DNA of 64,000 nt from Sphagnum magellanicum. Taxonomy: Eukaryota > Streptophyta > Sphagnopsida > Sphagnales > Sphagnaceae. The DNA is taken from contig CM038910.1 in NCBI GenBank assembly GCA_021904315.1, positions 18,910,001 to 18,974,000 on the forward strand, given 5' to 3'. Under the pieces are notes generated by a model. That model saw only the letters and a program-made list of their open reading frames with translations, ran no database searches and had not been told where the DNA came from. The first letter of the stretch is position 1, and every line of letters begins with the position of its first letter. Shown one piece after another: positions 3,791 to 59,570 of the stretch. The position numbers and the translations under genes were made by a program.

Positions 3791-3803
3791 GAAAATTAAG
3801 CTA

Positions 3804-5585: not shown

Positions 5586-5746
5586 AAAATAGACCAAACC
5601 TTACCCTTTCTAAAGGCGACTATCCGTCCACGGCTTCAGGGGCGGCTTCATTGTCAGTACCATTGTCGGTACCATTGTTCCTTTACTATATGTAATGTGT
5701 CACATCACAGGAACAGTCTTGATTGACGACTTACTCAACAAAATGG

Positions 5747-22258: not shown

Positions 22259-22471
22259 TATTGGAAACAAGTTGAAAACAAGCAAGAAATGGAACGCTCA
22301 AGGTTCATGAAATAGAACAATTGTATTAACTAACAAGAACAATACAAAGGTTGTATGCTTTCAATTGATGTAATCACAAAACTATGGCTTGCAACAACTA
22401 ACAAAGCTTGAAGGTTCTATGTGCACTCAAAAACCATGAAAGGAAGGAATGAAAGACAACTCAAAACCACT
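22259..22471 (-). repeat. Family A 3' LTR, truncated
   Basis: This matches the distal 213 bp of the family A LTR (TATTGGAAACAAG at the left edge through CAAAACCACT). The upstream part of the LTR, the polypurine tract and the last part of RNase H are missing. The sequence jumps at about 22471 straight into RNase H coding, marking one internal deletion. Confidence 0.85.
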
Positions 22472-26200: not shown

Positions 26201-26303
26201 CAAAAAGATTATCTCCCTTTTTCTATGCAATACAAGTTGAAAACCTTTCACTATTTCTTGTTCTAACACAATATTTTTTCTCTTGCTTGGTGTGGGCCCA
26301 TAA

Positions 26304-26595
26304 TGTTGAAGATTATGATGTAGATGAAACATAGATAGTGGTGTGATAGATATTAGAAACTATGTGGTAGATAAGTGTTGCAAGTAATCAAAGACATAGG
26401 TAGATTGAAGATATGTTAGTACCACCAATATGTTAGAATAAGGAGGGAGAGAAATAGTTATCCCATATGGTTTGTAAATGTGGTGGTACAAGGAAGGGAA
26501 TAAAGAGCAACGTTGGAACTCTCACTCCAAGCATTGTTCACATACTTGTGTGATTTGAATGTGCAATCTCTCCTCTAATCCTATTGTTTTCAACA
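26304..26595 (+). repeat. B1 5' LTR
   Basis: 292 bp, opening TGTTGAAGAT and closing TTTTCAACA, so it has TG...CA ends inside a 7-bp inverted repeat. It carries GGAATAAAG, a possible polyadenylation signal, in its middle third. The divergence pattern matches B3 rather than Bm/Bp. Confidence 0.93.
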
Positions 26596-26609
26596 GGTTA
26601 TGGGCCCAC
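26596..26609 (+). other. B1 primer-binding site, half-tRNA-iMet type
   Basis: GGTTATGGGCCCAC follows the LTR directly. It is the reverse complement of the anticodon arm of plant initiator tRNA-Met (GUGGGCCCAUAACC, recalled sequence), not of the tRNA 3' end. The same 14-mer sits at the same place in family A and in E1, Bm and Bp, and with one change (GTTTATGG) in B2. Confidence 0.85.
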
Positions 26610-26865
26610 TCATGCAAATTGAATCATTAGAGGTTTGATTGCTTATGTGCATTGAGAGAGATCTTGAGGGTTTGTGTGTTGGAGGTGTAATTTTTGCACT
26701 GTTGGAGGTGCTTTTGGAGCCTTGGAGGAGTTTTGACGAGCTTTGGAGGAGGTTCGAGGTTTTGGAGGCCATCTCCAGTTTGGAGGTGCACAAGTGCTAG
26801 ATTGGTGCTCTTTGGAGGTCTTTCGAAACATTGGATGTGCATGTGTCCACATTCCAGCATTGTAA

Positions 26866-27140
26866 CTCTTGATTTGAGTTGGTTGAGTGCATTTTGAGTG
26901 TGTAAGGAGAGCACTTGATTTGAGTTGGTTGAGTGCATTTTGAGTGTGTAAGGAGAGCACTTGATTTGAGTTGGTTGAGTGCATTTTGAGTGTGTAAGGA
27001 GAGCACTTGATTTGAGTTGGTTGAGTGCATTTTGAGTGTGTAAGGAGAGCACTTGATTTGAGTTGGTTGAGTGCATTTTGAGTGTGCAAGGAGAGCACTT
27101 GATCTGAGTTGGTTTAGTGCATTCTGAGTGTGTAAGGAGG
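26866..27140 (+). repeat. 46-bp leader minisatellite, about 5-6 copies
   Basis: GAGCACTTGATTTGAGTTGG starts at 26909, 26955, 27001, 27047 and 27093, an exact 46-bp period, with partial units on each side. Early units are identical; the last carries substitutions. It lies in the untranslated leader between primer site and gag. B2 has about one unit, E1 has three or more, and Bm/Bp have diverged partial units. Long antisense frames across it are products of the repeat and are not genes. Confidence 0.93.
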
Positions 27141-27335
27141 CATTGATGCAAGTGGGAGCCATTAAGGGCTGAATTTGTGATTGGAGGTGCATTGGTGCAC
27201 AATTGAGCCATCTAGGGGCTGGAGTGTGTTTATGAGAGTGCATTGAGGCAAATTGCATGTAAGAGTGTTCCTTAGGCACTAATTAGCATCTGGTTGAGCA
27301 CATAAGTGGGTAGAGAGGTCGGATTTGAGTGCAAA

Positions 27336-30300
27336 ATGGCATCCTTTGAGGGAGAGAGTGCTGGAGTCATTGACAAGTTCAATGGGGAGAACTTCAACCT
27401 CTGGAAGTTCAAGATGGAGATGGTGTTGGCCTCCATGGACCTTTGGGAGATTGTCGACGGGTCTGAGGAGGCTCCCCATCTAATTCAGACCCCAAAGTCA
27501 TCAAGGAGTACCAACGGCGTGCAAAGAAGGCCATGTCCACCATTGCCATCAACTTGGTGGATAGTCAACTTCACCACATCAAGAGGTGCAAAGGACCAGC
27601 GGAGGCATGGAACACACTTTGCAACATCCATGAGACATGGAGCTTGTCCAACATCCTCTTCATTCGACGTAAGTTCTTCACGTGTAAGATGCAAGAGGGA
27701 GCAGACCTTCTAGACCACATCAACAAGGTAAAGGCACTTGCTGATCAACTTGCTTGCTTGGAGGTGCCCGTGAGGGATGAGGATGTTGTCATGACCTTGC
27801 TTGAGAGCTTGCCACCCTCCTACAAGTACCTCATCACCGCCTTGGAGACCCTGCCCATGCAAGACCTCACAATGGAGTTTGTTACCGCACGATTGATGCA
27901 TGAAATGTCCAAGAGGAAGGAGAAGGAGCCCCAAGGTGATGATGCAACCATGGTGTCAATGCAAGGAAGAGGAGGGACCACATCTACACGCAAAGACACC
28001 AAGACATGCTACTATTGTGGCAAACCAGGCCACATTGCACGATTTTGCTTCAAGGCCAAGAATAACAAGGAAAAGGAGAATGCCAACAAAGCCAAGGATG
28101 ATGATGACTATGCCTTTGCAACAAAGGATGGAGACAATTGCAAGGCCATACGCAAGTGGATCATGGACTCAGGAGCCACCAAGCATATGACCCCTCATAA
28201 AGCCGCATTTGACATGTATGAGGTAATTCCAACACGCAATGTGCATATGGGTGATGATAGCATTGTTGAGGCAATTGGAATGGGGTCCGTCCTTGTGGAA
28301 GTAATGGTGAAAGGGCGAACCAAGAGGATCAGAATCAAGGACGTGCTCCATGTGCCAAAATTGCATGCCAACTTGCTTTCCGTGAGCAAAATCTTGTCAA
28401 GTGGGTGCAAAGTGCAATTCAACATGAATGAGTGCATTGTGAGGGCATTTGATGGAGAGGTGATTGTAATAGCCTTACGCGAAGGCAACTTGTATCAGAT
28501 GACCTTCACCAAGGTGTGTGAGATGCATGTGGCCAACCTGGCCCAAACTTCAACAATTGATGGTGCATTAGAGCTTTGGCATCGTCGCCTAGGTCATTTG
28601 AACATCAAAGGTGTGCATGCGCTCCAAAACATGGTGAGTGGTATGAACCTTGCAAACATCACCTGCCCTACATCTTCATTTGTTTGTGAAGGGTGCATTG
28701 AGGGAAAATAACATTGCAAACCATTTCCAGGAAGGTGTGGGTGTACTTGTTAAACTCCAAAGGGGAATGCTTGGAGAAGTTCAAGGAATTCAAGGGACTT
28801 GTAGAGACACAATCAGAGCACAAAATCAAGGTGTTTAGGTCGGATAATGGAGGGGAGTACATTTCAAGGGGATTCCAGCGCTTCTTGAAGGCACATGGCA
28901 TTGAGAAGCAAACCTCCACACCATATAGGCCTCAACAAAATGGAGTGGCAGAGCGTGCAAACCGCACCCTTGTGGAGATGGCAAGGAGCATCCTTCATGC
29001 TCAGAACCTCAAGAAGTCACTTTGGGCGGAAGCGGTGGTGAATGCGGCCTACACAAGAAATCGATGTCCATCAAGAGCTTTGCTCTCCATCACACCAGAG
29101 GAAGCGTGGAGTGGGAGAAAGCCTTGCATTTCACACATGCGTGTGTTTGGATGCATTGCATATGCCATGGTGCCGGATGAGAAGAGGGGTAAGCTTGATG
29201 CAAAGGGCACAAAATGCTTGTTTCTTGGGTATTGTGAAGGCACCAAGGCATATAGGCTCATGTGTGTGCAATCCAAAAAGATCATCAAGTGTAGGGATGT
29301 TGAGTTCATGGAGGATAGCACTAGTGTCGGCAATGATTTGGAGATGCATCCAAGTGGGAGAAATGAGACCCCTAATGCGGTGATTGTGGACACATCTTCC
29401 AAATCGCCCTTTGTGGATGATGATGAGCTCACAAGTGATGTCAAAGAGTATCCAAGCAATCAAGAGGCACCGCCAACCCTGGGCCATTCATCAACACCTT
29501 CATCACCATCTAAGGATGCAAGCACAAATGGTGAACAAGAGGGGCAGACCTTGGAGGAGCGTAGGTACTCCTTGAGGGATCGGCGACCGCTTGGAGAATG
29601 GTGGAAGAACCACATCCTACCCCAACAAGATGTGGAACGTGCTAATGTTGCTTGTCTTGATGATCCATTCAATTTGTGCGATGCAATGCGTTCGGAGGAT
29701 GCAAGCAAGTGGGAGGCGGCCATGCAAGAGGAATATGCCTCACTCATGGCAAATGGCACGTGGGAATTCGTCCCCCTTCCAAAGGATCGCAAGAGTGTGG
29801 GATGCAAGTGGGTGTTTCGCACAAAAAGGGATGCATCAGGCCATGTGGTGAGGCACAAGGCAAGGTTGGTGGCCAAGGGGTACTCTCAAGTTGAGGGTGT
29901 GGACTTCAATGAGACATTTGCCCCGGTGGCCAAATTCACCACCATTAGATGCATGCTTGCAATTGGATCTGCCATGGACTTAGAGATCCACCAAATGGAT
30001 GTGAAGACCGCATTCTTGAATGGGGAATTGGAGGAGGACATCTACATGGACCAACCGCAAGGATTTGTGCAAGATGGCAAGGAGCACCTGGTGTGTAAGT
30101 TGAAGAAGTCCTTGTACGGGCTCAAGCAATCACCAAGAACATGGTACCAACGCATTGACATGTTCTTCACCCATGAATGCTTTTCTAGGAGCCAAGCGGA
30201 CCATTCATTGTATGTCAAGCAAACGGGTGAGTACTTGTTGATAGTGATTATCTATGTGGATGATCTGATCATCTTAGCAAGCAATGTGAACATTTTGAAA

Positions 30301-31269
30301 TGGTTGAAGTCAAGGCTTGAAGATGAATTTGAGATGAGTGATCTTGGAGAGTTGCACTATTGCCTCGGTGTGGAGCTTGAGAGAGACCGTGCAAATCACA
30401 CCATAACCATGAGCCAAGGAAAGTACATTGAGGAGGTGCTCAAGCGCTTCAACATGGAGGAGTGCAAGCCCATTGGAACTCCGCTTGATGTGAATTCCAA
30501 GCTCTTGAAACTCACGGAGGAAGAGTTTCAAGGCATTCAAGAGGAGATGCAAGGCATTCCATATAAGGCAGCGGTGGGATCACTGATGTATGCCATGGTG
30601 GGCACACGGCCAGATCTTGCATTTGCGGTGAGCATGGTGAATCAATTCATGACAAGGGCTGGTCCTTTCCATTGGATGGCGGTGAAACGCATCATGCGCT
30701 ACTTGAAGGGAACTTTGGATTTGAAATTGTGCCTTGGAGGCAAGGATGTTAGTTTGAGAGGATATTGTGATGCGGATTGGGGTGGAGATGCAAATGAGAG
30801 ACGTTCCACCATAGGGTATGTGTTCTTTGTTGGAGTTGGAGCCATTTCATGGAATTGCAAGAGGCAACCTACAATTGCCTTGTCTACCACAGAGGCCGAA
30901 TACATGGCCACTAGTCAATGCACCAAGGAGGCCATATGGTTGAGGAAGTTGATGGCAGATGTGGGACTTGTGCAAGTTGGAGCAACAACCATCATGTGTG
31001 ACAATCAGGGATGCATTGCACTTTCAAAGAACCCAACCCACCACTCTCGCACAAAGCACATTGACATACAACACCATTTCATTCGAGAGAAGTTGGAGAG
31101 TGGAAAAATAGGCCTGAAGTATTGCCCAACTCAAGATATGGTGGCAGATGTGTTGATAAAGGCATTGGCAAAGGAGCGGCATCAGAACCTTACAAGAAGC
31201 ATGGGATTGGGAGTCTTAGATTACTTGCAAAGTGGGAGTGTTGAAGATTATGATGTAGATGAAACATAG
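27336..31269 (+). pseudogene. B1 Gag-Pol polyprotein, defective
   Basis: The start is the ATG of MASFEG, conserved in all B copies. Gag, the zinc knuckle CYYCGKPGHIARFC, protease DSGAT and the pre-integrase finger are present. Breaks: a one-base deletion near 27475; CAA-to-TAA stop at about 28709 after CIEGK; and a deletion of about 124 bp near 28730 that removes the integrase HSDVCGP segment with the first catalytic Asp and shifts frame. From 28714 on, 851 codons stay open, with integrase RSDNGGEY and NGVAER, RT YVDD (about 30258), and RNase H YCDADW, TEAEYMA and CDNQG. The reading frame ends inside the 3' LTR. No full polyprotein is possible. Confidence 0.93.
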
Positions 31270-31541
31270 ATAGTGGTGTGATAGATATTAGAAACTATGT
31301 GGTAGATAAGTGTTGCAAGTAATCAAAGACATAGGTAGATTGAAGATATGTTAGTACCACCAATATGTTAGAATAAGGAGGGAGAGAAATAGTTATCCCA
31401 TATGGTTTGTAAATGTGGTGGTACAAGGAAGGGAATAAAGAGCAAGGTTGGAGGAGAGTTGGAACTCTCACTCCAAGCATTGTTCACATACTTGTGTGAT
31501 TTGAATGTGCAATCTCTCCTTTGATCCTATTATTTTCAACA
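31239..31541 (+). repeat. B1 3' LTR
   Basis: 303 bp, TGTTGAAGAT to TTTTCAACA. Its first 31 bp encode the last codons of the polyprotein and its stop. The CATAA target duplication follows. Confidence 0.93.
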
Positions 31542-31548
31542 CATAACC

Positions 31549-32001
31549 TATTGGAAACAAGTTGAAAACAAGCAAGAAATGGAACACTCAAGGTTCATGA
31601 AATAGAACAATTGTATTAACTAACAAGAACAATACAAAGGTTGTATGCTTTCAATTGATGCAATCACAAAACTATGGCTTGCAACAACTAACAAAGCTTG
31701 AAGGTTCTATGTGCACTCAAAAACCATGAAAGGAAAGAATGAAAGACAACTCAAAAACCACTCCATTATATACTATCTCCTAACCCTAAAGTAGCCACCA
31801 CTTAACCCTAACCTAGCCGCCACCAAAGCCTAACCTTAGCCGCCACCAAACCCTAACCCTAACCGTCGCCAAACCCTAAGTAGTCTCCACTTCTAAACCC
31901 TAACCTAACTATTACAAGGATGTGAATACTATTCATCCTTTTGATGAATGTTTAACACATTTATCGACATTGGGAATTAGAAACGAATAATATTTCTAAC
32001 A
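31549..32001 (-). repeat. Family A 5' LTR
   Basis: 453 bp, minus strand, starting TGTTAGAAATA (at 32001) and ending CCAATA (at 31549). It contains CCCTAACC/GCCGCCACC-type minisatellite units at about 31790-31880. The target duplication CTCCT follows at 32002-32006. Confidence 0.92.
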
Positions 32002-32045
32002 CTCCTAGTCCTACTTCACAAACAAGTGTGCATGAGTAAGATAAC

Positions 32046-32647
32046 TCTTAGAAATACTATTCGTTTCTAATTCCCAATGTTGATGAATGTGTTAAACATT
32101 CATTAAAAGGATGAATAATATTCACATCCTTGTAGTAGTTAGGTTAGGGTTTAGAAGTGGAGACTACTTAGGGTTTGGCAACGGCTAGGGTTAGGGTTTG
32201 GTGGCGGCTATGTTTAGGCGGCTGCTAGGGTTAGGGTTTGGCGGCAACTAGGTTAGGGTTAAGTGGCGGCTACTTTAGGGTTAGGAAATAGTATATATTG
32301 GAGTGGTTTTTGAGTTGTCTTTCATTCTTTCCTTTCATGATTTTTTAGTGCACATAGAACCTTCAAGCTTTGTTAGTTGTTGCAAGCCATAGTTTTGTGA
32401 TTGCATCAATTGAAAGCATACAACCTTTGTATCGTTCTTGTTAGTTAATACAATTATTCTTTTTCATGAACCTTGAGTGTTCCATTTCTTGCTTGTTTTC
32501 AACTTGTTTCCAATAGGTTATGGGCCCACACCAAGCAAGAGAAAGAATATTGTGTTAGAACAAGAAATAGTGAAAGGTTTTGAACTTGTATTACATAGAA
32601 AAAAGGAAAGAATCCTTTTGAGAGACGGATTTTTGTTTGCACAATAA
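32046..32647 (+). mobile_element. Family A fragment, plus strand: 5' LTR, primer site and leader
   Basis: LTR 32046-32515 (starts TCTTAGAAATAC, so the canonical TG is changed or lost; ends CCAATA), primer site GGTTATGGGCCCAC at 32516-32529, then a leader that matches the family A leader up to GACGGATTTTTGTTTG near 32640, where B2 begins. The rest of the element is not found to the right. It faces away from the family A 5' LTR across only 44 bp. Confidence 0.88.
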
Positions 32648-32960: not shown

Positions 32961-33508
32961 GTTTATGGGCCCACACATGTGAGTTACATGATTAGAGGTT
33001 TGATTGCTTATGCATTGAGAGAGATCTTGAGGTTTTGTGTTTGTTGGAGGTGCAAGTTTTCACTTCTGGAGGGTTCTTAGAGGCGCTTTTGGAGCCTTGG
33101 AGGAGCTTTGAGGTTTTGGAGGCCATCTCGAGTTTGGAGGTGCACAAGTGCTGAATTGGTGCTCTTTGGAGGTACTTCGAAGCATTGGATGTGCATGTGT
33201 GCACATTCCAGCATTGTAAGTCTTGATTTGAGTCATTAAGTGTACTTGTGCACATTCGATTCATAGAGCACTTGATTTGAGTTGGTTGAGTGCATTATGA
33301 GTGTGTAAGGAGGCATTGATGCAAATGGGAGCCATTAAGGGCTGAATTTGTGATTGGAGGTGCATTGGTGCACAATTGAGCCATCTAGGGACTGGAGAGT
33401 GTTTATGAGAGTGCATTGAGGCAAATTGCATGTAAGAGTGTTCATTATGCACTAATTAGCATCTGGTTGAGCACATAAGTGGGTAGAGAGGTCGGATTTG
33501 AGTGCAAA

Positions 33509-44548: not shown

Positions 44549-44873
44549 TGTTGAAACAATAGGATCAGAGGAGAGATTGCACATTCAAAGCACATAGATC
44601 ACACAAGTATGTGAACAATGCTTGGAGTGAGATATCCAACTCTCCTCCAACCTTGCTCTTTATTCCCTTCCCTGTACCACCACATTGACAAACCATATGG
44701 GATAAATATCTCTCTCCCTCCTTATTCTAACATGTTGGTGGTACTAGCATAAATCAAATCCACCTATGTCTTTGATTACTTGCAAGACTAATCTATCACA
44801 TAGTTTCTACCAGATTGTTTCTAATATCTCTAACACTATTAACTATGTCTCATCTACATCATAATCTTCAACA
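44549..44873 (-). repeat. Bm 3' LTR
   Basis: 325 bp, TG...CA ends. It reads GCAAGACTAATC near 44782 where the 5' LTR and B4 read GCAACACTAATC, the only difference seen. Confidence 0.95.
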
Positions 44874-47800
44874 CTCCCACTTTGCAAGTAATCTAAGACT
44901 CCCAATCCCATGCTTCTTGTAAGGTTTTGATGTCGCTCCTTTGCCAATGCCTTTGTCAACACATCTGCAACCATATCTTGAGTTGGGCAATACTTGAGGC
45001 CTATTTCTCCACTCTCTAACTTCTCCCGTATGAAGTGGTGTTGTATGTCAATGTGCTTTGTGCGAGAGTGGTGGGTTGGGTTCTTCGCAAGTGCAATGCA
45101 TCCTTGATTGTCACACATGATGGTGGTTGCTCCAACTTGCACAAGTCCCACATCTGCCATCAACTTCCTCAACCATATGGCCTCCTTGGTGCATTGACTA
45201 GTGGCCATGTATTCGGCCTCCGTGGTAGACAAGGCAATTGTAGGTTGCCTCTTGCAATTCCATGAGATGGCTCCAACTCCAACAAAGAACACATACCCTG
45301 TGGTGGAACGTCTCTCATTTGCATCTCCTCCCCAATCCGCATCACAATATCCCTTCAAACTAACATCCTTGCCTCCAAGGCACAATTTCAATTCCAAAGT
45401 GCCCTTCAAGTACCGCATGATGCGTTTCACCGCCATCCAATGGGAAGGACCAGCCCTTGACATGAATTGACTCACCATGCTCACCGGGAATGCAAGATCT
45501 GGTCGTGTGCCCACCATGGCATACATCAATGATCCCACCGCCGCCTTATACGGAATGCCTTGCATCTCCTCTTGAACGCTCTGAAACTCTTGCTCCGTGA
45601 GTTTCAAGAGCTTGGAATTCACATCAAGCGGAGTTGCAATGGGCTTGCACTCCTCCATGTTGAAGCGCTTGAGCACCTCCTCAATGTACTTCCTTTGGCT
45701 CATGGTTATGGTGTGATTTGCACGATCTCTCTCAAACTCCACACCGAGGCAATAGTGCAACTCTCCAAGATCACTCATCTCAAATTCATCTTCAAGCCTT
45801 GACTTCAACCATTTCAAAATGTTCACATTGCTTGCTAAGATGATCAGATCATCTACATAGATTATCACTATCAACAAGTACTCACCCGTTTGCTTGACAT
45901 ACAAGGAATGGTCCGCTTGGCTCCTAGAAAAGCATTCATGGGTGAAGAACATGTCAATGCGTTGGTACCATGCTCTTGGTGATTGCTTCAGCCCATACAA
46001 GGACTTCTTCAACTTGCACACTAGTTGCTCCTTGCCTTCTTGCACGAATCCTTGCGGTTGGTCCATGTAGATGTCCTCCTCCAATTCCCCATTCAAGAAT
46101 GCGGTCTTCACATCCATTTGGTGGATCTCTAAGTCCATGGCAGATCCAATTGCAAGCATGCATCTAATGGTGGTGAATTTGGCCACCGGGGCAAATGTCT
46201 CATTGAAGTCCACACCTTCAACTTGAGAGTACCCCTTGGCCACCAACCTGGCCTTGTGCCTCACAACATGGCCTGATGCATCCCTTTTTGTGCGAAACAC
46301 CCACTTGCATCCCACACTTTTACGGTCCTTTGGGAGAGGGACCAATTCCCATGTGCCATTTGCCATGAGTGAGGCATATTCCTCTTGCATGGCTGCCTCC
46401 CACTTGCTTGCATCCTCGGAATGCATGGCATCGCACAAATTCAATGGATCATCAAGACAAGCAACATTTGCGTGTTCCACATCTTGTTGGGGTAGGATGT
46501 GGTTCTTCCACCACTCTCCAAGCGGTCGCCGCTCCCTCAAGGGGTACCTACGCTCCTCCAAGGTCTGCCCCTCTTGTTCACCATTTGTGCTTACATCTTT
46601 TGATGGTGATGAAGGTGTTGATGAACGCCCCAGGGTTGGCGGTGCCTCTTGATTGCTTGGATACTCTTTGAAATCACTTGTGAGTTCATCATCATACACA
46701 CAAGGGGATTTGGAAGATGTGTCCACAATCACCACATTAGGGGTCTGATTTCTCCCACTTGGATGCATCTCCAAATCATTGCCCACACTAGTGCTATCCT
46801 CCATGAACTCAACATCCCTACACTTGATGATCTTTTTGGATTGCACACACATCAGCCTATATGCCTTGGTGCCTTCACAATACCCAAGAAACAAGCATTT
46901 TGTGCTCTTTGCATCAAACTTACCCCTCTTCTCATCCGGCACCATGGCATATGCAATGCATCCAAACACACGCATGTGTGAAATGCAAGGCTTTCTCCCA
47001 CTCCACGCTTCCTCTGGTGTGATGGATGGCAAGGCTCTTGATGGACATCGATTCCTTGTGTAGGCCGCATTCGCCACCGCTTCCGCCCAAAGTGACTTCT
47101 TGAGGTTTTGAGCATGAAGCATGCTCCTTGCCATCTCCACAAGGGTGCGATTTGCACGCTCTGCCACTCCATTTTGTTGAGGCCTATATGGTGTGGAGGT
47201 TTGCTTCTCAATGCCATGTTCCTTCAAGAAGCCCTGGAATCCCTTGGAAATGTACTCCCCTCCATTGTCGGACTGAAACACCTTGATCTTGTGGCCTGAT
47301 TGTGTCTCCACAAGTGCCTTGAATTCCTTGAACTTTTCCAAGCACTCCCCTTTGGACCTCAACAAGTAAACCCACACCTTTCTTGAAAAGTCGTCAATGT
47401 AGGTCACAAAGTACCTTGCACCACCCAAGGATGTGGTCCTCATGGGGCCGCATACATCCGAATGCACAATCTCCAGGGGCTTGGTGGCACGCATCCCTCC
47501 ATCACTTGGAAATGGTTTGCAATGTTGTTTTCCCTCAATGCACCCTTCACAAACAAATGAAGAAGTAGGGCAGGGCATATTTCCAAGGTTCATACCACTC
47601 ACCATGTTTTGGAGCGCATGCACACCTTTGATGTTCAAATGACCTAGCCGACGATGCCAAAGCTCCAATGCACCATCAATTGTTGAAGTTTGGGCCACGT
47701 TGGCCACATGCCTCTCACACACCTTGGTGAAGGTCATTTGATACAAGTTGCCTTCGCGTAGTGCTATTGCAATCATCTCTCCATCAAATGCCCTCACAAT

Positions 47801-48901
47801 GCACTCATTCATATTGAATTGCACTTTGCACCCATTTGACAAGATTTTGCTCACCGAAAGCAAGTTGGCATGCAATTTTGGCACATGGAGCACGTCCTTG
47901 ATTCTGATCCTCCTGGTTTGCCCTTTCACCATCACTTCCACAAGGATGGATCCTATTCCAATTGCCTCAACAATGCTATCATCACCCATATGCACGTTAC
48001 GTGTTGGAATTACCTCATACATGTCAAATGCGGCTTTATGAGGGGTCATATGCTTCGTTGCTCCTGAGTCCATGATCCACTTGCATATGGCCTTGCAATG
48101 ATCTCCATCCTTTGTTGCAAAGGCATAGTCATTATCATCCTTGGCCTTGTTGGCATTCTCCTTCTCCTTGTTATTCTTGGCCTTGAAGCAAAATCGTGCA
48201 ATGTGGCCTGGTTTGCCACAATAGTAGCATGTCTTGGTGTCTTTGCGGGTAGATGTGGTCCCTCCTCTTCCTTGCATTGACACCATGGCCGCATCATCAC
48301 CTTGGGGCTCCTTCTCCTTCCTCTTGGAAACTTCATGCATCAATCTCGCGGTCACAAATTCCATGGTGAGGTCCTTCATGGGCAAGGTCTCCAAGGCGGT
48401 GATCAGGTACTCGTAGGAGGGTGGCAAGCTCTCAAGCAATGTCATCACAACATCTTCATCTCTCACGGGCACCTCCAAGCAAGCGAGTTGATCAGCAAGT
48501 GCTTTTACCTTGTTAATGTGATCTAGTAGGTCCTCTCCCTCTTGCATCTTACATGTGAAGAACTTGCGGCGAATGAAGAGGATGTTGGACAAGCTCCTCG
48601 TCTCGTGGATGTTACAAAGTGTCCTCCATGCCTCCACTGGTCCCTTGCACCTCTTGATGTGGTGAAGTTGACTATCCACCAAGTTGATGGCAATGGTGGA
48701 CATGGCCTTCTTTGCGCGCCGTTGGTACTCCTTGATGACTTTGGGGTCTGAATTGGATGGTGGAGCCTCCTCAGACCCGTCCACAATCTCCCAAAGGTCC
48801 ATGGAGGCCAACACCATCTCCATCTTGAACTTCCAGAGGTTGAAGTTCTCCCCATTGAACTTGTCAATGACTCTAGTGCTCTCTCCCTCAAAGGATGCCA
48901 T
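44843..48901 (-). CDS. Bm Gag-Pol polyprotein, intact, 1,352 residues
   Basis: A single unbroken frame. The start chosen is the Met of MASFEG, since E1/E2 lack the Met ten codons upstream (48931). Order: Gag, zinc knuckle CYYCGKPGHIARFC (225-238), protease DSG (278), pre-integrase finger H416/H421/C451/C454, integrase Asp482, Asp545 and Glu581 (35 residues between the last two), RT with YVDD (1015-1018), RNase H Asp1187, Glu1228 and Asp1264. All catalytic positions are present. It differs from Bp at two residues seen: Gln rather than Arg at 543, just before SDNGG, and Arg rather than Ser at 1329. The last ten residues are LTR-encoded. The protein packages and copies element RNA in virus-like particles and integrates the DNA in the nucleus. 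Confidence 0.95.
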   Translation of the reverse strand: MASFEGESTRVIDKFNGENFNLWKFKMEMVLASMDLWEIVDGSEEAPPSNSDPKVIKEYQRRAKKAMSTIAINLVDSQLHHIKRCKGPVEAWRTLCNIHETRSLSNILFIRRKFFTCKMQEGEDLLDHINKVKALADQLACLEVPVRDEDVVMTLLESLPPSYEYLITALETLPMKDLTMEFVTARLMHEVSKRKEKEPQGDDAAMVSMQGRGGTTSTRKDTKTCYYCGKPGHIARFCFKAKNNKEKENANKAKDDNDYAFATKDGDHCKAICKWIMDSGATKHMTPHKAAFDMYEVIPTRNVHMGDDSIVEAIGIGSILVEVMVKGQTRRIRIKDVLHVPKLHANLLSVSKILSNGCKVQFNMNECIVRAFDGEMIAIALREGNLYQMTFTKVCERHVANVAQTSTIDGALELWHRRLGHLNIKGVHALQNMVSGMNLGNMPCPTSSFVCEGCIEGKQHCKPFPSDGGMRATKPLEIVHSDVCGPMRTTSLGGARYFVTYIDDFSRKVWVYLLRSKGECLEKFKEFKALVETQSGHKIKVFQSDNGGEYISKGFQGFLKEHGIEKQTSTPYRPQQNGVAERANRTLVEMARSMLHAQNLKKSLWAEAVANAAYTRNRCPSRALPSITPEEAWSGRKPCISHMRVFGCIAYAMVPDEKRGKFDAKSTKCLFLGYCEGTKAYRLMCVQSKKIIKCRDVEFMEDSTSVGNDLEMHPSGRNQTPNVVIVDTSSKSPCVYDDELTSDFKEYPSNQEAPPTLGRSSTPSSPSKDVSTNGEQEGQTLEERRYPLRERRPLGEWWKNHILPQQDVEHANVACLDDPLNLCDAMHSEDASKWEAAMQEEYASLMANGTWELVPLPKDRKSVGCKWVFRTKRDASGHVVRHKARLVAKGYSQVEGVDFNETFAPVAKFTTIRCMLAIGSAMDLEIHQMDVKTAFLNGELEEDIYMDQPQGFVQEGKEQLVCKLKKSLYGLKQSPRAWYQRIDMFFTHECFSRSQADHSLYVKQTGEYLLIVIIYVDDLIILASNVNILKWLKSRLEDEFEMSDLGELHYCLGVEFERDRANHTITMSQRKYIEEVLKRFNMEECKPIATPLDVNSKLLKLTEQEFQSVQEEMQGIPYKAAVGSLMYAMVGTRPDLAFPVSMVSQFMSRAGPSHWMAVKRIMRYLKGTLELKLCLGGKDVSLKGYCDADWGGDANERRSTTGYVFFVGVGAISWNCKRQPTIALSTTEAEYMATSQCTKEAIWLRKLMADVGLVQVGATTIMCDNQGCIALAKNPTHHSRTKHIDIQHHFIREKLESGEIGLKYCPTQDMVADVLTKALAKERHQNLTRSMGLGVLDYLQSGSVEDYDVDET

Positions 48902-49519
48902 TTTGCACTCAAATCCGACCTCTCTACTCACTTATGTGCTCAACCAGATGCTAAATAGTGCCTAATGACACTCTTACATGCAATTTGCCTCAATGCACTC
49001 TCATAAACACACTTCAGCCCCTAGATGGCTCAATTGTGCACTAGTGCACCTCCAATCACAAATGAGCCCTTAATGGCTCCCACTTGCATCAATGCCTCCT
49101 TACACACTCAGAATGCACTCAACCAACTCAAATGAAGTGTTCTCCTTACACACTCACAATGCACTCAAGCAACTCTTGCATGAATACCTTCTTTACACTC
49201 AGAATGCACTTATCCAACTCAAATCAAGTGCTCTATGAATCAAGTGCTCTATGAATCAAATGTGCACAAATACACCTTAGTAACTCAATCAAGACTTACA
49301 ATGCTGGTTTGCACATCCAATGCTTCGAAACACCTCCAAATAGCACCAATCCAGGACTTGTGCACCTCCCAACTCCAAATGGCCTTCAAAATCGCCTCCA
49401 AGAACCTTCTAGAAGTGAAAACTTGCACCTCCAACAAACACGAAACCTCAAGATCTCTCTCAATGCACACAAGCAATCAAACCTCTAATGATGCAACTCA
49501 CATGAGTGGGCCCATAACC

Positions 49520-49844
49520 TGTTGAAACAATAGGATCAGAGGAGAGATTGCACATTCAAAGCACATAGATCACACAAGTATGTGAACAATGCTTGGAGTG
49601 AGATATCCAACTCTCCTCCAACCTTGCTCTTTATTCCCTTCCCTGTACCACCACATTGACAAACCATATGGGATAAATATCTCTCTCCCTCCTTATTCTA
49701 ACATGTTGGTGGTACTAGCATAAATCAAATCCACCTATGTCTTTGATTACTTGCAACACTAATCTATCACATAGTTTCTACCAGATTGTTTCTAATATCT
49801 CTAACACTATTAACTATGTCTCATCTACATCATAATCTTCAACA
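49520..49844 (-). repeat. Bm 5' LTR
   Basis: 325 bp, identical by eye to the B4 LTR. As the 5' LTR it holds the promoter for leftward transcription. The primer site lies immediately inside at 49506-49519. Confidence 0.95.
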
Positions 49845-51500: not shown

Positions 51501-51825
51501 TGTTGAAGATTATGATGTAGATGAGACATAGTTAATAGTGTTAGAGATATTAGAAACAATCTGGTAGAAACTATGTGATAGATTAGTGTTGCAAGTAATC
51601 AAAGACATAGGTGGATTTGATTTATGCTAGTACCACCAACATGTTAGAATAAGGAGGGAGAGAGATATTTATCCCATATGGTTTGTCAATGTGGTGGTAC
51701 AGGGAAGGGAATAAAGAGCAAGGTTGGAGGAGAGTTGGATATCTCACTCCAAGCATTGTTCACATACTTGTGTGATCTATGTGCTTTGAATGTGCAATCT
51801 CTCCTCTGATCCTATTGTTTCAACA
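51501..51825 (+). repeat. Bp 5' LTR
   Basis: 325 bp, TGTTGAAGAT to TTTCAACA. An ATATTTAT box-like sequence (51665-51672) and AATAAA (51710-51715) are candidate promoter and polyadenylation signals. Their order, with 110 bp or so downstream to the LTR end, fits a usual copia LTR, but the transcription start is not shown. Confidence 0.94.
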
Positions 51826-51839
51826 GGTTATGGGCCCAC
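51826..51839 (+). other. Bp primer-binding site, half-tRNA-iMet type
   Basis: GGTTATGGGCCCAC abuts the LTR. It pairs with the anticodon arm of plant initiator tRNA-Met, which contains the CAU anticodon. Pairing stops after 14 bases (the next bases, TCATG, do not match), as expected if the primer is a tRNA cut in the anticodon loop region. Confidence 0.85.
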
Positions 51840-52427
51840 TCATGTGAGTTGCATCATTAGAGGTTTGATTGCTTGTGTGCATTGAGAGAGATCTTGAGGT
51901 TTCGTGTTTGTTGGAGGTGCAAGTTTTCACTTCTAGAAGGTTCTTGGAGGCGATTTTGAAGGCCATTTGGAGTTGGGAGGTGCACAAGTCCTGGATTGGT
52001 GCTATTTGGAGGTGTTTCGAAGCATTGGATGTGCAAACCAGCATTGTAAGTCTTGATTGAGTTACTAAGGTGTATTTGTGCACATTTGATTCATAGAGCA
52101 CTTGATTTGAGTTGGATAAGTGCATTCTGAGTGTAAAGAAGGTATTCATGCAAGAGTTGCTTGAGTGCATTGTGAGTGTGTAAGGAGAACACTTCATTTG
52201 AGTTGGTTGAGTGCATTCTGAGTGTGTAAGGAGGCATTGATGCAAGTGGGAGCCATTAAGGGCTCATTTGTGATTGGAGGTGCACTAGTGCACAATTGAG
52301 CCATCTAGGGGCTGAAGTGTGTTTATGAGAGTGCATTGAGGCAAATTGCATGTAAGAGTGTCATTAGGCACTATTTAGCATCTGGTTGAGCACATAAGTG
52401 AGTAGAGAGGTCGGATTTGAGTGCAAA

Positions 52428-55400
52428 ATGGCATCCTTTGAGGGAGAGAGCACTAGAGTCATTGACAAGTTCAATGGGGAGAACTTCAACCTCTGGAAGT
52501 TCAAGATGGAGATGGTGTTGGCCTCCATGGACCTTTGGGAGATTGTGGACGGGTCTGAGGAGGCTCCACCATCCAATTCAGACCCCAAAGTCATCAAGGA
52601 GTACCAACGGCGCGCAAAGAAGGCCATGTCCACCATTGCCATCAACTTGGTGGATAGTCAACTTCACCACATCAAGAGGTGCAAGGGACCAGTGGAGGCA
52701 TGGAGGACACTTTGTAACATCCACGAGACGAGGAGCTTGTCCAACATCCTCTTCATTCGCCGCAAGTTCTTCACATGTAAGATGCAAGAGGGAGAGGACC
52801 TACTAGATCACATTAACAAGGTAAAAGCACTTGCTGATCAACTCGCTTGCTTGGAGGTGCCCGTGAGAGATGAAGATGTTGTGATGACATTGCTTGAGAG
52901 CTTGCCACCCTCCTACGAGTACCTGATCACCGCCTTGGAGACCTTGCCCATGAAGGACCTCACCATGGAATTTGTGACCGCGAGATTGATGCATGAAGTT
53001 TCCAAGAGGAAGGAGAAGGAGCCCCAAGGTGATGATGCGGCCATGGTGTCAATGCAAGGAAGAGGAGGGACCACATCTACCCGCAAAGACACCAAGACAT
53101 GCTACTATTGTGGCAAACCAGGCCACATTGCACGATTTTGCTTCAAGGCCAAGAATAACAAGGAGAAGGAGAATGCCAACAAGGCCAAGGATGATAATGA
53201 CTATGCCTTTGCAACAAAGGATGGAGATCATTGCAAGGCCATATGCAAGTGGATCATGGACTCAGGAGCAACGAAGCATATGACCCCTCATAAAGCCGCA
53301 TTTGACATGTATGAGGTAATTCCAACACGTAACGTGCATATGGGTGATGATAGCATTGTTGAGGCAATTGGAATAGGATCCATCCTTGTGGAAGTGATGG
53401 TGAAAGGGCAAACCAGGAGGATCAGAATCAAGGACGTGCTCCATGTGCCAAAATTGCATGCCAACTTGCTTTCGGTGAGCAAAATCTTGTCAAATGGGTG
53501 CAAAGTGCAATTCAATATGAATGAGTGCATTGTGAGGGCATTTGATGGAGAGATGATTGCAATAGCACTACGCGAAGGCAACTTGTATCAAATGACCTTC
53601 ACCAAGGTGTGTGAGAGGCATGTGGCCAACGTGGCCCAAACTTCAACAATTGATGGTGCATTGGAGCTTTGGCATCGTCGGCTAGGTCATTTGAACATCA
53701 AAGGTGTGCATGCGCTCCAAAACATGGTGAGTGGTATGAACCTTGGAAATATGCCCTGCCCTACTTCTTCATTTGTTTGTGAAGGGTGCATTGAGGGAAA
53801 ACAACATTGCAAACCATTTCCAAGTGATGGAGGGATGCGTGCCACCAAGCCCCTGGAGATTGTGCATTCGGATGTATGCGGCCCCATGAGGACCACATCC
53901 TTGGGTGGTGCAAGGTACTTTGTGACCTACATTGACGACTTTTCAAGAAAGGTGTGGGTTTACTTGTTGAGGTCCAAAGGGGAGTGCTTGGAAAAGTTCA
54001 AGGAATTCAAGGCACTTGTGGAGACACAATCAGGCCACAAGATCAAGGTGTTTCGGTCCGACAATGGAGGGGAGTACATTTCCAAGGGATTCCAGGGCTT
54101 CTTGAAGGAACATGGCATTGAGAAGCAAACCTCCACACCATATAGGCCTCAACAAAATGGAGTGGCAGAGCGTGCAAATCGCACCCTTGTGGAGATGGCA
54201 AGGAGCATGCTTCATGCTCAAAACCTCAAGAAGTCACTTTGGGCGGAAGCGGTGGCGAATGCGGCCTACACAAGGAATCGATGTCCATCAAGAGCCTTGC
54301 CATCCATCACACCAGAGGAAGCGTGGAGTGGGAGAAAGCCTTGCATTTCACACATGCGTGTGTTTGGATGCATTGCATATGCCATGGTGCCGGATGAGAA
54401 GAGGGGTAAGTTTGATGCAAAGAGCACAAAATGCTTGTTTCTTGGGTATTGTGAAGGCACCAAGGCATATAGGCTGATGTGTGTGCAATCCAAAAAGATC
54501 ATCAAGTGTAGGGATGTTGAGTTCATGGAGGATAGCACTAGTGTGGGCAATGATTTGGAGATGCATCCAAGTGGGAGAAATCAGACCCCTAATGTGGTGA
54601 TTGTGGACACATCTTCCAAATCCCCTTGTGTGTATGATGATGAACTCACAAGTGATTTCAAAGAGTATCCAAGCAATCAAGAGGCACCGCCAACCCTGGG
54701 GCGTTCATCAACACCTTCATCACCATCAAAAGATGTAAGCACAAATGGTGAACAAGAGGGGCAGACCTTGGAGGAGCGTAGGTACCCCTTGAGGGAGCGG
54801 CGACCGCTTGGAGAGTGGTGGAAGAACCACATCCTACCCCAACAAGATGTGGAACACGCAAATGTTGCTTGTCTTGATGATCCATTGAATTTGTGCGATG
54901 CCATGCATTCCGAGGATGCAAGCAAGTGGGAGGCAGCCATGCAAGAGGAATATGCCTCACTCATGGCAAATGGCACATGGGAATTGGTCCCTCTCCCAAA
55001 GGACCGTAAAAGTGTGGGATGCAAGTGGGTGTTTCGCACAAAAAGGGATGCATCAGGCCATGTTGTGAGGCACAAGGCCAGGTTGGTGGCCAAGGGGTAC
55101 TCTCAAGTTGAAGGTGTGGACTTCAATGAGACATTTGCCCCGGTGGCCAAATTCACCACCATTAGATGCATGCTTGCAATTGGATCTGCCATGGACTTAG
55201 AGATCCACCAAATGGATGTGAAGACCGCATTCTTGAATGGGGAATTGGAGGAGGACATCTACATGGACCAACCGCAAGGATTCGTGCAAGAAGGCAAGGA
55301 GCAACTAGTGTGCAAGTTGAAGAAGTCCTTGTATGGGCTGAAGCAATCACCAAGAGCATGGTACCAACGCATTGACATGTTCTTCACCCATGAATGCTTT

Positions 55401-56486
55401 TCTAGGAGCCAAGCGGACCATTCCTTGTATGTCAAGCAAACGGGTGAGTACTTGTTGATAGTGATAATCTATGTAGATGATCTGATCATCTTAGCAAGCA
55501 ATGTGAACATTTTGAAATGGTTGAAGTCAAGGCTTGAAGATGAATTTGAGATGAGTGATCTTGGAGAGTTGCACTATTGCCTCGGTGTGGAGTTTGAGAG
55601 AGATCGTGCAAATCACACCATAACCATGAGCCAAAGGAAGTACATTGAGGAGGTGCTCAAGCGCTTCAACATGGAGGAGTGCAAGCCCATTGCAACTCCG
55701 CTTGATGTGAATTCCAAGCTCTTGAAACTCACGGAGCAAGAGTTTCAGAGCGTTCAAGAGGAGATGCAAGGCATTCCGTATAAGGCGGCGGTGGGATCAT
55801 TGATGTATGCCATGGTGGGCACACGACCAGATCTTGCATTCCCGGTGAGCATGGTGAGTCAATTCATGTCAAGGGCTGGTCCTTCCCATTGGATGGCGGT
55901 GAAACGCATCATGCGGTACTTGAAGGGCACTTTGGAATTGAAATTGTGCCTTGGAGGCAAGGATGTTAGTTTGAAGGGATATTGTGATGCGGATTGGGGA
56001 GGAGATGCAAATGAGAGACGTTCCACCACAGGGTATGTGTTCTTTGTTGGAGTTGGAGCCATCTCATGGAATTGCAAGAGGCAACCTACAATTGCCTTGT
56101 CTACCACGGAGGCCGAATACATGGCCACTAGTCAATGCACCAAGGAGGCCATATGGTTGAGGAAGTTGATGGCAGATGTGGGACTTGTGCAAGTTGGAGC
56201 AACCACCATCATGTGTGACAATCAAGGATGCATTGCACTTGCGAAGAACCCAACCCACCACTCTCGCACAAAGCACATTGACATACAACACCACTTCATA
56301 CGGGAGAAGTTAGAGAGTGGAGAAATAGGCCTCAAGTATTGCCCAACTCAAGATATGGTTGCAGATGTGTTGACAAAGGCATTGGCAAAGGAGCGACATC
56401 AAAACCTTACAAGTAGCATGGGATTGGGAGTCTTAGATTACTTGCAAAGTGGGAGTGTTGAAGATTATGATGTAGATGAGACATAG
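52428..56486 (+). CDS. Bp Gag-Pol polyprotein, intact, 1,352 residues
   Basis: One open frame with every catalytic residue of a functional copia Pol. Numbered from MASFEG: zinc knuckle 225-238; protease Asp278; pre-integrase H416/H421/C451/C454; integrase Asp482-Asp545-Glu581 with the expected 35-residue gap; RT from about 848 with KWVFRTKRD, SLYGLKQSP and YVDD at 1015-1018; RNase H Asp1187, Glu1228, Asp1264 and the TKHID block near 1285. The upstream in-frame ATG at 52398 would add ten residues but is not conserved in E1/E2. There is no gag-pol frameshift, so Gag excess must come from processing or RNA control. The stop lies in the 3' LTR, 31 bp past its start. Residue 1329 is Ser, shared with B4 and not with Bm. 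Confidence 0.95.
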   Translation: MASFEGESTRVIDKFNGENFNLWKFKMEMVLASMDLWEIVDGSEEAPPSNSDPKVIKEYQRRAKKAMSTIAINLVDSQLHHIKRCKGPVEAWRTLCNIHETRSLSNILFIRRKFFTCKMQEGEDLLDHINKVKALADQLACLEVPVRDEDVVMTLLESLPPSYEYLITALETLPMKDLTMEFVTARLMHEVSKRKEKEPQGDDAAMVSMQGRGGTTSTRKDTKTCYYCGKPGHIARFCFKAKNNKEKENANKAKDDNDYAFATKDGDHCKAICKWIMDSGATKHMTPHKAAFDMYEVIPTRNVHMGDDSIVEAIGIGSILVEVMVKGQTRRIRIKDVLHVPKLHANLLSVSKILSNGCKVQFNMNECIVRAFDGEMIAIALREGNLYQMTFTKVCERHVANVAQTSTIDGALELWHRRLGHLNIKGVHALQNMVSGMNLGNMPCPTSSFVCEGCIEGKQHCKPFPSDGGMRATKPLEIVHSDVCGPMRTTSLGGARYFVTYIDDFSRKVWVYLLRSKGECLEKFKEFKALVETQSGHKIKVFRSDNGGEYISKGFQGFLKEHGIEKQTSTPYRPQQNGVAERANRTLVEMARSMLHAQNLKKSLWAEAVANAAYTRNRCPSRALPSITPEEAWSGRKPCISHMRVFGCIAYAMVPDEKRGKFDAKSTKCLFLGYCEGTKAYRLMCVQSKKIIKCRDVEFMEDSTSVGNDLEMHPSGRNQTPNVVIVDTSSKSPCVYDDELTSDFKEYPSNQEAPPTLGRSSTPSSPSKDVSTNGEQEGQTLEERRYPLRERRPLGEWWKNHILPQQDVEHANVACLDDPLNLCDAMHSEDASKWEAAMQEEYASLMANGTWELVPLPKDRKSVGCKWVFRTKRDASGHVVRHKARLVAKGYSQVEGVDFNETFAPVAKFTTIRCMLAIGSAMDLEIHQMDVKTAFLNGELEEDIYMDQPQGFVQEGKEQLVCKLKKSLYGLKQSPRAWYQRIDMFFTHECFSRSQADHSLYVKQTGEYLLIVIIYVDDLIILASNVNILKWLKSRLEDEFEMSDLGELHYCLGVEFERDRANHTITMSQRKYIEEVLKRFNMEECKPIATPLDVNSKLLKLTEQEFQSVQEEMQGIPYKAAVGSLMYAMVGTRPDLAFPVSMVSQFMSRAGPSHWMAVKRIMRYLKGTLELKLCLGGKDVSLKGYCDADWGGDANERRSTTGYVFFVGVGAISWNCKRQPTIALSTTEAEYMATSQCTKEAIWLRKLMADVGLVQVGATTIMCDNQGCIALAKNPTHHSRTKHIDIQHHFIREKLESGEIGLKYCPTQDMVADVLTKALAKERHQNLTSSMGLGVLDYLQSGSVEDYDVDET
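56446..56455 (+). other. Bp polypurine tract
   Basis: AAAGTGGGAG lies directly 5' of the 3' LTR, the position and composition used for plus-strand DNA priming in copia elements. The identical tract abuts the 3' LTR of B1, B3, Bm, B4, E1 and E2. It is also coding (residues of LQSGS). Confidence 0.85.
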
Positions 56487-56781
56487 TTAATAGTGTTAGA
56501 GATATTAGAAACAATCTGGTAGAAACTATGTGATAGATTAGTGTTGCAAGTAATCAAAGACATAGGTGGATTTGATTTATGCTAGTACCACCAACATGTT
56601 AGAATAAGGAGGGAGAGAGATATTTATCCCATATGGTTTGTCAATGTGGTGGTACAGGGAAGGGAATAAAGAGCAAGGTTGGAGGAGAGTTGGATATCTC
56701 ACTCCAAGCATTGTTCACATACTTGTGTGATCTATGTGCTTTGAATGTGCAATCTCTCCTTATGATCCTATTGTTTCAACA
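56456..56781 (+). repeat. Bp 3' LTR
   Basis: 326 bp. It matches the 5' LTR except near its right end, and is followed by a 49-bp E2 LTR remnant instead of a target duplication. Confidence 0.94.
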
Positions 56782-56830
56782 TACCACACCATTTCTAATG
56801 TTTCTAACATCTACATCATAATCTTCAACA
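56782..56830 (-). repeat. E2 5' LTR remnant
   Basis: 49 bp matching the first 49 bases (element orientation) of the E1/E2 LTR, ending CTTCAACA on the plus strand. AAATC (56831-56835) then resumes E1. The other 269 bp of this LTR are gone. Confidence 0.9.
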
Positions 56831-56835
56831 AAATC

Positions 56836-57261
56836 AAGTGCTTCCTCACACACTCGAAATGCACTGAGCCAACTCAAATCAAGTGCTTCCTCACACACTC
56901 GAAATCCACTCAGCCAACTCAAATCAAGTGCTCTACAAATCAAATGTGCACAAATACACCTCAAGGATTCAAATCAAGACTTACAATGTTGGAATGTGCA
57001 CAGATGCACATCTAATGCTTCAAAACACCTCCAAAGAACACCAATCAAGAACTTGTGCACCTCCAAGCTCCAAATGGCTTGCAAAACCTCAAAGCTCCTC
57101 CAAAGCTCTTCAAAAGTCCTCCAAGGCTCCAAAAGCGCCTCCAAAACCCTCCAAAAGAGCAAACTTGCACCTCCAATACACACAAATCCTCAAGATCTCT
57201 CTCAATGCATACAAGTAATCAGACCTCTAATCATGCAACTTGCATGTGTGGGCCCATAACC
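56836..57261 (-). other. E1 untranslated leader, second part, with primer site
   Basis: Continues the 46-bp leader repeat (AAGTGCTTCCTCACACACTC at 56836 and again near 56881), then a run rich in CTCCAAA motifs, and ends with GTGGGCCCATAACC (57248-57261), the complement of the half-tRNA primer site. No coding is seen. Confidence 0.85.
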
Positions 57262-57579: not shown

Positions 57580-59570
57580 GGATGCAAGTGGGTGTTTCGC
57601 ACAAAAAGGGATGCATCAGGCCATGTGGTGAGGCACAAGGCAAGGTTGGTGGCCAAGGGGTACTCTCAAGTTGAAGGTGTGGACTTCAATGAGACATTTG
57701 CCCCGGTGGCCAAATTCACCACCATTAGATGCATGCTTGCAATTGGATCTGCCATGGACTTAGAGATCCACCAAATGGATGTGAAGACCGCATTCTTGAA
57801 TGGGGAATTGGAGGAGGACATCTACATGGACCAACCGCAAGGATTCGTGCAAGATGGCAAGGAGCACCTGGTGTGTAAGTTGAAGAAGTCCTTGTACGGG
57901 CTCAAGCAATCACCAAGAGCATGGTACCAACGCATTGACATGTTCTTCACCCATGAATGCTTTTCTAGGAGCCAAGCGGACCATTCATTATATGTCAAGC
58001 AAACGGGTGAGTACTTGTTGATAGTGATTATCTATGTGGATGATCTGATCATCTTAGCAAGCAATGTGAACATTTTGAAATGGTTAAAGTCAAGGCTTGA
58101 AGATGAATTTGAGATGAGTGATCTTGGAGAGTTGCACTATTGCCTCGGTGTGGAATTTGAAAGAGACCGCAAATCACACCATAACCATGAGCCAAAGAAA
58201 GTACATTGAGGAGGTGCTGAAGCGCTTCAACATGGAGGAGTGCAAGCCCATTGGAACTCCGCTTGATGTGAATTCCAAGCTCTTGAAACTCACGGAGGAA
58301 GAGTTTCAATATTGGACATAACTTGAAAACAAGCAAGAAATGAAAGCTTCAAGGTTCATGAAATGGAACAATTGTATTAACTAACAAGAAGATTACAAAG
58401 GTTGTATGCTTCAAATGCTACAATCACAAAACTATGGCTTGCAACAACTAACAAAGCTTGAAGGTTCTATGTGCACTCAAAAAAACATGAAAGGAAAGAA
58501 TGAAAGACCACTCAAAACCACTCCAATATATACTATCTCCTAACCTTAAAGTAGCCGCCACTTAACCCTAACCTAGCCGCCGCCTAACCCTAGCCGCCAC
58601 GAAACCCTAACCCTAGCCGCCACCAAACCCTAACCCTAGCCGCCACCTAACCCCAACCCTAGCCGCCGCCAAGCCCCAACCCTAGCCGTCCCCAAGCCCT
58701 AAATACTTTTCACTTCTAAACCCTAGCCGCCACTATTGAACCTAACCTAACTACTAGAAGGATGACAATACTATTCATCCATTTGATGAATGTTTAACAC
58801 ATTCATCAACATTGGGAATTAGAAACGAATAGTATTTCTAACATTCAAGGCATTCAAGAGGAGATGCAAGGCATTCCATATAAGGCAGCGGTGGGATCAT
58901 TGATGTATGCCATGGTGGGCACACGGCCGGATCTTGCATTCCCGGTGAGCATGGTGAGTCAATTCATGTCAAGGGCTGGTCCTTCCCATTGGATGGCGGT
59001 GAAACGCATCATGCGGTACTTGAAGGGAACTTTGGAATTGAAATTGTGCCTTGGAGGCAAGGATGTTAGTTTGAGAGGATATTGTGATGCGGATTGGGGT
59101 GGAGATGCAAATGAGAGACGTTCCACCACAGGGTATGTGTTCTTTGTTGGAGTTGGAGCCATTTCATGGAATTGCAAGAGGCAACCTACAATTGCCTTGT
59201 CTACCACAGAGGCCGAATACATGGCCACTAGTCAATGCACCAAGGAGGCCATATGGTTGAGGAAGTTGATGGCAGATGTGGGACTTGTGCAAGTTGGAGC
59301 AACCACCATCATGTGTGACAATCAGGGATGCATTGCACTTGCAAAGAACCCAACCCACCACTCTCGCACAAAGCACATTGACATACAACACCACTTCATT
59401 CGAGAGAAGTTGGAGAGTGGAGAAATAGGCCTCAAGATATGGTGGCAAATGTGTTGACAAAGGCATTGGCAAAGGAGCGGCATCAAAACCTTACAAGAAG
59501 CATGGGATTGGGAGTCTTAGATTACTTGCAAAGTGGGAGTGTTGAAGATTATGATGTAGATGAAACATAG
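57580..59570 (+). pseudogene. B3 Pol fragment: reverse transcriptase and RNase H
   Basis: RT from GCKWVF through SLYGLKQSP and YVDD (about 58038) to EEEFQ, then the solo LTR, then QGIPYKAAVGSLMYAM and the RNase H motifs YCDADW, TEAEYMA, CDNQG and TKHID. Lesions besides the LTR: a two-base loss near 58170 (GACCGC for GACCGTGC), and a 16-bp loss near 59436 between CTCAAG repeats, which removes YCPTQ and shifts frame. Gag, protease and integrase are absent. Confidence 0.92.
58310..58843 (-). repeat. Solo family A LTR inside B3
   Basis: 534 bp, minus orientation, from TATTGGAC at the left edge to TTTCTAACA. TTCAA flanks both sides (58305-58309, 58844-58848) and the RT reading frame rejoins exactly when the LTR and one TTCAA are removed. 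It is larger than other family A LTRs because of extra CCCTAACCCTAGCCGCC units at about 58560-58700. It is a product of recombination between the two LTRs of a full insertion. Confidence 0.95.

Follow-up and report, generated by a model that had tools for sequence, protein, structure and literature searches.

The question raised by this locus is which molecule primes reverse transcription in its copia elements. The canonical primer-binding site is TGGTATCAGAGC; the 14 bases that directly follow one LTR of the window (the whole 64-kb stretch of DNA analysed here) read GGTTATGGGCCCAC. The element to which this LTR belongs is made up of the following parts:

51501..51825, + strand: 5' LTR of a B-type copia element, 325 bp, TGTTGA...TCAACA
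51826..51839, + strand: predicted primer-binding site GGTTATGGGCCCAC, complementary to tRNA-iMet nt 26-39 by sequence match
52398..56486, + strand: open gag-pol frame of 1362 aa with Retrotran_gag_2, zf-CCHC, gag_pre-integrs, rve and RVT_2, in copia order
56456..56781, + strand: 3' LTR of the 51501-56781 element, with purine-rich AAAGTGGGAG just upstream

The two LTRs of this element differ by one mismatch and one gap. As its outer flanks, viz. ATGTG (51496-51500) and TACCA (56782-56786), show no target duplication although the LTRs are nearly identical, a rearrangement after insertion is suggested. Other elements and element parts in the window are:

44549..49844, - strand: complete B element flanked by CCTTG on either side, with an open frame of 1362 aa and LTRs that agree at 324 of 325 positions
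26304..31541, + strand: B-related element with the duplication CATAA, lying within the primer-binding site of a family A element
31549..32515, no strand assigned: pair of family A LTRs in head-to-head arrangement, the left ending at the split site and the right at 32516-32529
58310..58843, - strand: solo LTR of family A with the duplication TTCAA, 534 bp long and reading TG...TA when taken in its own orientation
22427..25932, - strand: fragmented family A-type gag-pol remnant, compared with B over its RT part
26868-27147, 41713-41849, 49096-49234, 52095-52233 and 56831-56932: leader repeat of 45-46 bp

That these are Ty1/copia elements is indicated by rve preceding RVT_2 in one frame, by direct LTRs and by 5-bp duplications (CCTTG, CATAA and TTCAA). 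Over its RT part, the A-type remnant shares 49% identity with B (311 of 630 aligned columns), and by their sequences families A and B are distinct. Several further features of these elements were observed. The leader repeat forms a tandem array between the primer site and gag, and its copy number differs among copies. Family A and some B-related LTRs (those at 32516, 57262 and 58310) terminate in TA instead of CA, and the solo A LTR ending in this manner nonetheless has a clean 5-bp duplication. The head-to-head A LTRs at 31549-32515 each have a primer-binding site at their outward end. Outside the copia cluster, there is a run of open frames at 59-2264 (-), which by eye we take to resemble a Helitron-type replicase.

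Exact matches to the 14-mer were found at five places in the window, viz. the one given above and the four marked as exact below, in addition to which there are two near-matches:

26596..26609, + strand: primer-binding site of the 26304-31541 element, exact 14-mer
32516..32529, + strand: primer-binding site beside the family A LTR ending in ...CCAATA, exact 14-mer
49506..49519, - strand: primer-binding site of the 44549-49844 element, exact 14-mer
57248..57261, - strand: primer-binding site of a B-related LTR (57262-57579) ending in ...TTCAATA, exact 14-mer
32961..32974, + strand: one-base variant with T at position 2 (1 mismatch), following a B-related LTR
26292..26303, - strand: 12 bases of a split family A primer-binding site, the other two lying at 31547-31548, recognised from the joined flanks

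With up to 2 mismatches allowed, the window holds 7 matches; in 100 shuffles the mean was 0.41, and a count of 7 was never reached (0/100). At all five exact sites and at the one-base variant, the first base of the site comes directly after the LTR end (...CAACA or ...AATA). The remaining, two-mismatch match (26292-26305, - strand) is the left part of the family A site, which has been split by the insertion of the 26304-31541 element, with CATAA duplicated where this element entered (26292-26303 / 31542-31548). When the flanks of this insertion are joined, an intact 14-mer flush to the A LTR is restored. Hence, the statement in the earlier note that both family A copies carry the 14-mer is right when the split copy is read across the insertion, and its broader statement that the 14-mer adjoins 5' LTRs applies to five exact places, to the one-base variant and to the copy that an insertion later split.

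The identity of the putative primer was examined by comparing the 14-mer with the tRNA-iMet genes of the same assembly (438,994,042 bp in 31 contigs), which were searched for with a plant tRNA-iMet sequence as the query. Six full-length genes were found, three identical to the query and three at 97%, and all six were called tRNA-Met by ARAGORN with the anticodon at nt 33-35. In each of the six, the 14-mer is exactly complementary to nt 26-39, which comprise the 5' strand of the anticodon stem, the loop and the first two bases of the 3' strand; given the location of the anticodon, these nucleotides correspond to standard positions 27-40. The earlier note had described the 14-mer as the reverse complement of the anticodon arm of plant tRNA-iMet and proposed its alignment to the tRNA of the source species, and in this alignment the description proves to be accurate. 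What is found beside the LTRs is thus a site that would pair with the anticodon arm of tRNA-iMet instead of the 3' end.

A primer of another kind should nevertheless be considered. It could be envisaged that intact tRNA-iMet pairs internally with the site, or that the site is a relic, the real primer being the 3' end of another tRNA or the element itself, as other copia lineages are described as using either the complete 3' end of tRNA-Met or self-priming (PMC6317226), and the primer here is predicted from sequence rather than from direct primer mapping. However, the site at 51826 lacks an initial TGG, and comparison of the sequence next to the LTR with the complement of the tRNA-iMet 3' end (the one tRNA 3' end examined) showed no match, due to which priming of this element from that end was rejected. 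Self-priming of the same element was likewise rejected, as no stretch of more than 6 nt among its first 20 bases is complementary to its own LTR. Further, in two over-extended copies described below the LTR is joined to nt 39 of the tRNA, a junction that an uncut tRNA cannot give. A primer other than the 5' half of tRNA-iMet is, therefore, very improbable.

Across the genome there are 417 exact copies of the 14-mer (216 + 201), and its reversed but not complemented form, used as a control, gave 0 matches. Six of the copies are the tRNA genes, and an LTR-type end, AYA, precedes 403 of the other 411. Among the 100 matches listed, 98 are non-tRNA sites, and 96 of these show the AYA end, the exceptions being L071 and L098; four of the 98 were examined separately, and the other 94 fall by shared 8-mers into 11 groups of LTR ends, which by these 8-mers alone comprise 48 B-like sites, 35 A-like sites, one group of 3 and 8 single sites. 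The proposal that half-tRNA priming serves two distinct families is in this light supported as to the priming, but not as to the number, since the site is present in more than two LTR types. Among the matches listed, most sites on a contig fall in one stretch, and this was the case for 6 of 6 contigs. The complementarity to the tRNA is also sharply limited. The next tRNA-complementary base (C at position 15) is absent from 404 of the 411 non-tRNA sites and present at 7, two of which are the over-extended copies; the other five were rejected as copies of the tRNA, as they depart from its complement at position 16.

The two over-extended copies, which carry tRNA sequence beyond the 14-mer (from nt 39 to 5 and from nt 39 to about 8, respectively), are located as follows:

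C3 near 12,230,609: over-extended copy 1, in L016 (C3:12223001-12233000, reverse complement 2067-5881)
C4 near 18,980,578: over-extended copy 2, of family A, the other main family

In both of them, the tRNA-bearing segment has an LTR on one side, joined exactly at nt 39, and an inverted LTR on the other. In copy 1, the sequence next to a B LTR is complementary to tRNA nt 39 to 5 over 35 bases, the single mismatch falling opposite G9; after it come one extra base and the inverted B LTR. The composite continues through the inverted 3' end of the element into a plus-oriented body and a third LTR, the switch from inverted to plus orientation taking place at a 7-base shared stretch, CAAGGCA. CTATG is present on both outer sides of the composite as a perfect 5-bp target duplication, and its three LTRs are identical over 325 bases; the inverted and plus body arms differ at 2 of 693 compared positions, despite the identical LTRs. 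This structure fits one aberrant cDNA that was integrated as a unit. In copy 2, a family A LTR adjoins a segment complementary to nt 39 to 10, in which there are three transitions, and next comes AAA, of which the first A lies mismatched opposite G9 and the second fits nt 8. After these come positions 178 to 1 of the inverted A LTR and further inverted sequence, and about 3.5 kb on there is a minus-strand A LTR with its own 14-mer, which is taken as the 5' LTR. The left end of this copy adjoins a B LTR. The break in its LTR at 177/178 was considered as a strong-stop end and rejected, as the TATA box of the solo A LTR is at position 312 and the B LTR end abuts the break. A genome search with a 23-mer (up to 3 mismatches) gave nine places, viz. 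the six genes, the two over-extended copies and one different sequence; the last, a match with 3 mismatches on C20, was considered as a third copy and rejected, as it proved to be another sequence, carrying a variant site. Scanning the window for the complement of the tRNA body (up to 3 mismatches) gave no match. The over-extended copies thus number 2 among 411 sites, a count in which tRNA-bearing copies with a mutated site could be missed outside the window. In the texts available to our literature search, no report of such tRNA-bearing copies in plants was found.

Since in both copies the tRNA segment starts at nt 39, joined to the LTR, and extends across the 5' half, their likely template, judging from these junctions, was a tRNA ending at nt 39 and attached to minus-strand DNA at the LTR. 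The junctions thereby bear on the mapping of minus-strand strong-stop DNA that the earlier note proposed. The same segments could have arisen by DNA recombination of an element with a tRNA-iMet gene at their common 14-mer, without any copying of a primer, and the 14 bp of identity and the presence of six such genes would permit this. However, the tRNA part of each copy stops inside the tRNA (at nt 5 and about nt 8), with no flanking sequence of a gene; opposite nt 9, which is G in all six genes, both copies carry an A; and each segment lies between an LTR and an inverted LTR, one of them within a composite bounded by a normal 5-bp duplication. Recombination with a gene is, hence, an improbable origin for these segments, although not quite so improbable as a primer other than the tRNA half, and a copied primer is the explanation that we adopt. 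The most probable reading, which we hold with high confidence on the basis of these sequences, is that the Ty1/copia elements start minus-strand DNA from the 5' half of tRNA-iMet and that overrun plus strands would give rise to LTR-tRNA-inverted-LTR copies.

The steps by which this would occur may be set out as follows. A nuclease would cut tRNA-iMet on the 3' side of nt 39 (standard position 40). Through its last 14 nt (nt 26-39), the resulting half would pair with the site that directly follows the 5' LTR, and its extension by reverse transcriptase would lead into U5. Plus-strand strong-stop DNA would then copy the LTR and normally 14 bases of the tRNA before its transfer. Occasionally, the plus strand may run on into the body of the tRNA, to G9 and just beyond, and such over-long strands, failing to transfer properly, may become acceptors for template switching and yield the LTR-tRNA-inverted-LTR copies. 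For copy 1, the overrun plus-strand strong-stop DNA would have been the acceptor to which a nascent strand switched end to end, a route with which the structure of this copy is consistent. RNAfold on the 39-nt half gave z -0.08 and a structure in which no free 3' tail was seen, and neither this fold nor that of the full tRNA was informative. The fold of the half counts against the reading, as do the differences between the body arms of copy 1 and the small number of over-extended copies.

The A opposite G9 in both over-extended copies deserves separate consideration. G9 is present in all six tRNA-iMet genes, so the A does not reflect a gene variant. The chance of such a common mismatch is 0.011 if nt 9 is named beforehand, 0.0035 if the base must also be the same, and 0.19 for any position; the mismatch at nt 9 of copy 1 had drawn attention before copy 2 came to light. 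The coincidence is modest evidence, and the As of copy 2 could be untemplated additions. By analogy with other eukaryotes, this tRNA-iMet may carry m1G9. G9 is methylated in many eukaryotic tRNAs. The enzyme making m1G9 is described as Trm10, and in mice tRNA-iMet is among the affected m1G9 tRNAs (PMC11347157). Misincorporation at G9 is described in fission yeast (PMC4697793), about half of m1G is lost in Arabidopsis TRM10 mutants (PMC2956550), and reverse transcription truncations in Arabidopsis tRNAs adjoin m1G and m2,2G (PMC11658184).

Priming by half-tRNAs has known counterparts. In the primer half of Drosophila copia, which is 39 nt long, the length equals the nt 39 end found here. Both Drosophila copia and yeast Ty5 are described as using half tRNA primers, as proposed here, and in Ty5 it is likewise tRNA-iMet that is cut internally, by a cut described as RNase P-mediated (PMC5371799); however, the hosts of these elements are an animal and a yeast, whereas the present elements reside in a plant. 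Among plant elements, Neumann et al. 2019 describe half-tRNA-Met sites in Osser, Bryco (of moss) and part of Gymco-II copia, and half-tRNA-Ile sites in Bianca (PMC6317226). As half-tRNA-Met sites have already been reported in moss copia, the present finding is a further case of a known priming. Bryco resembles the present elements, which probably likewise belong to a moss, in being a moss copia with a site complementary to a half-molecule of tRNA-Met, but the available text on it mentions no primer-containing copies, of which there are two here (PMC6317226). RLC5 copia of Physcomitrium, Ceratodon and Sphagnum forms dense clusters that are proposed centromeres (PMC9946827, PMC7466625), and the confinement of 14-mer sites to one stretch on each of the six contigs listed is similar. 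The present elements may be identical with RLC5, to which they are likened by their clustering; the available accounts of RLC5 contain no discussion of priming (PMC9946827, PMC7466625). Trapping of a copied primer tRNA after faulty primer removal or transfer, similar to that seen here, is described for two-LTR junctions of HIV-1, and the extra base on the inverted LTR of copy 1 is reminiscent of the final ribonucleotide that the RNase H of HIV-1 leaves in place (PMC5618025). The present copies differ from those junctions in the inverted arrangement of the LTRs around the tRNA, in that this tRNA is a 5' half, and in that the product has become integrated and inherited.

A final aspect is what sets the limit of 14 nt. 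In HIV-1, plus-strand strong-stop DNA is described as ending before m1A58, and as reaching the tRNA 5' end when the tRNA is unmodified (PMC13191261). As position 58 is not contained in a 5' half, elements primed by half-tRNAs need another stop, and the sharp limit of complementarity suggests one just before standard position 26. We propose only tentatively that in the absence of m1A58 a stop at this point sets the 14-nt site, and that its failures run to m1G9, misread G9 and end as inverted-LTR insertions. The length of the site could instead reflect the pairing strength needed and nothing more, with no stop of plus-strand copying at position 26, and to this we give somewhat less than an even chance. 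It agrees with the correct copying of position 26 (C opposite G) in both over-extended copies, and the texts available to our literature search yielded no statement of m2,2G26 on plant tRNA-iMet. However, the limit is sharp across families, with 404 of 411 sites lacking the next matching base and five more departing one base later, and run-on copying followed by transfer would presumably keep overwriting the next base with tRNA sequence.

In the published text available, half-tRNA priming in plants rests on sequence complementarity (PMC6317226), and it is for this reason that the two tRNA-bearing copies matter. A genomic copy in which the LTR is joined to nt 39, with the 5' half following, comes close to showing both the primer and its cut end directly. 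The finding also raises the question of how elements primed by half-tRNAs end their plus-strand strong-stop DNA without the retroviral m1A58 block. Genomes rich in such elements are a possible source of more copies recording tRNA cuts and methylated bases, and, if the tentative proposal of a stop just before position 26 with misreading at m1G9 is true, inverted-LTR insertions would keep a readable record of tRNA methylation.
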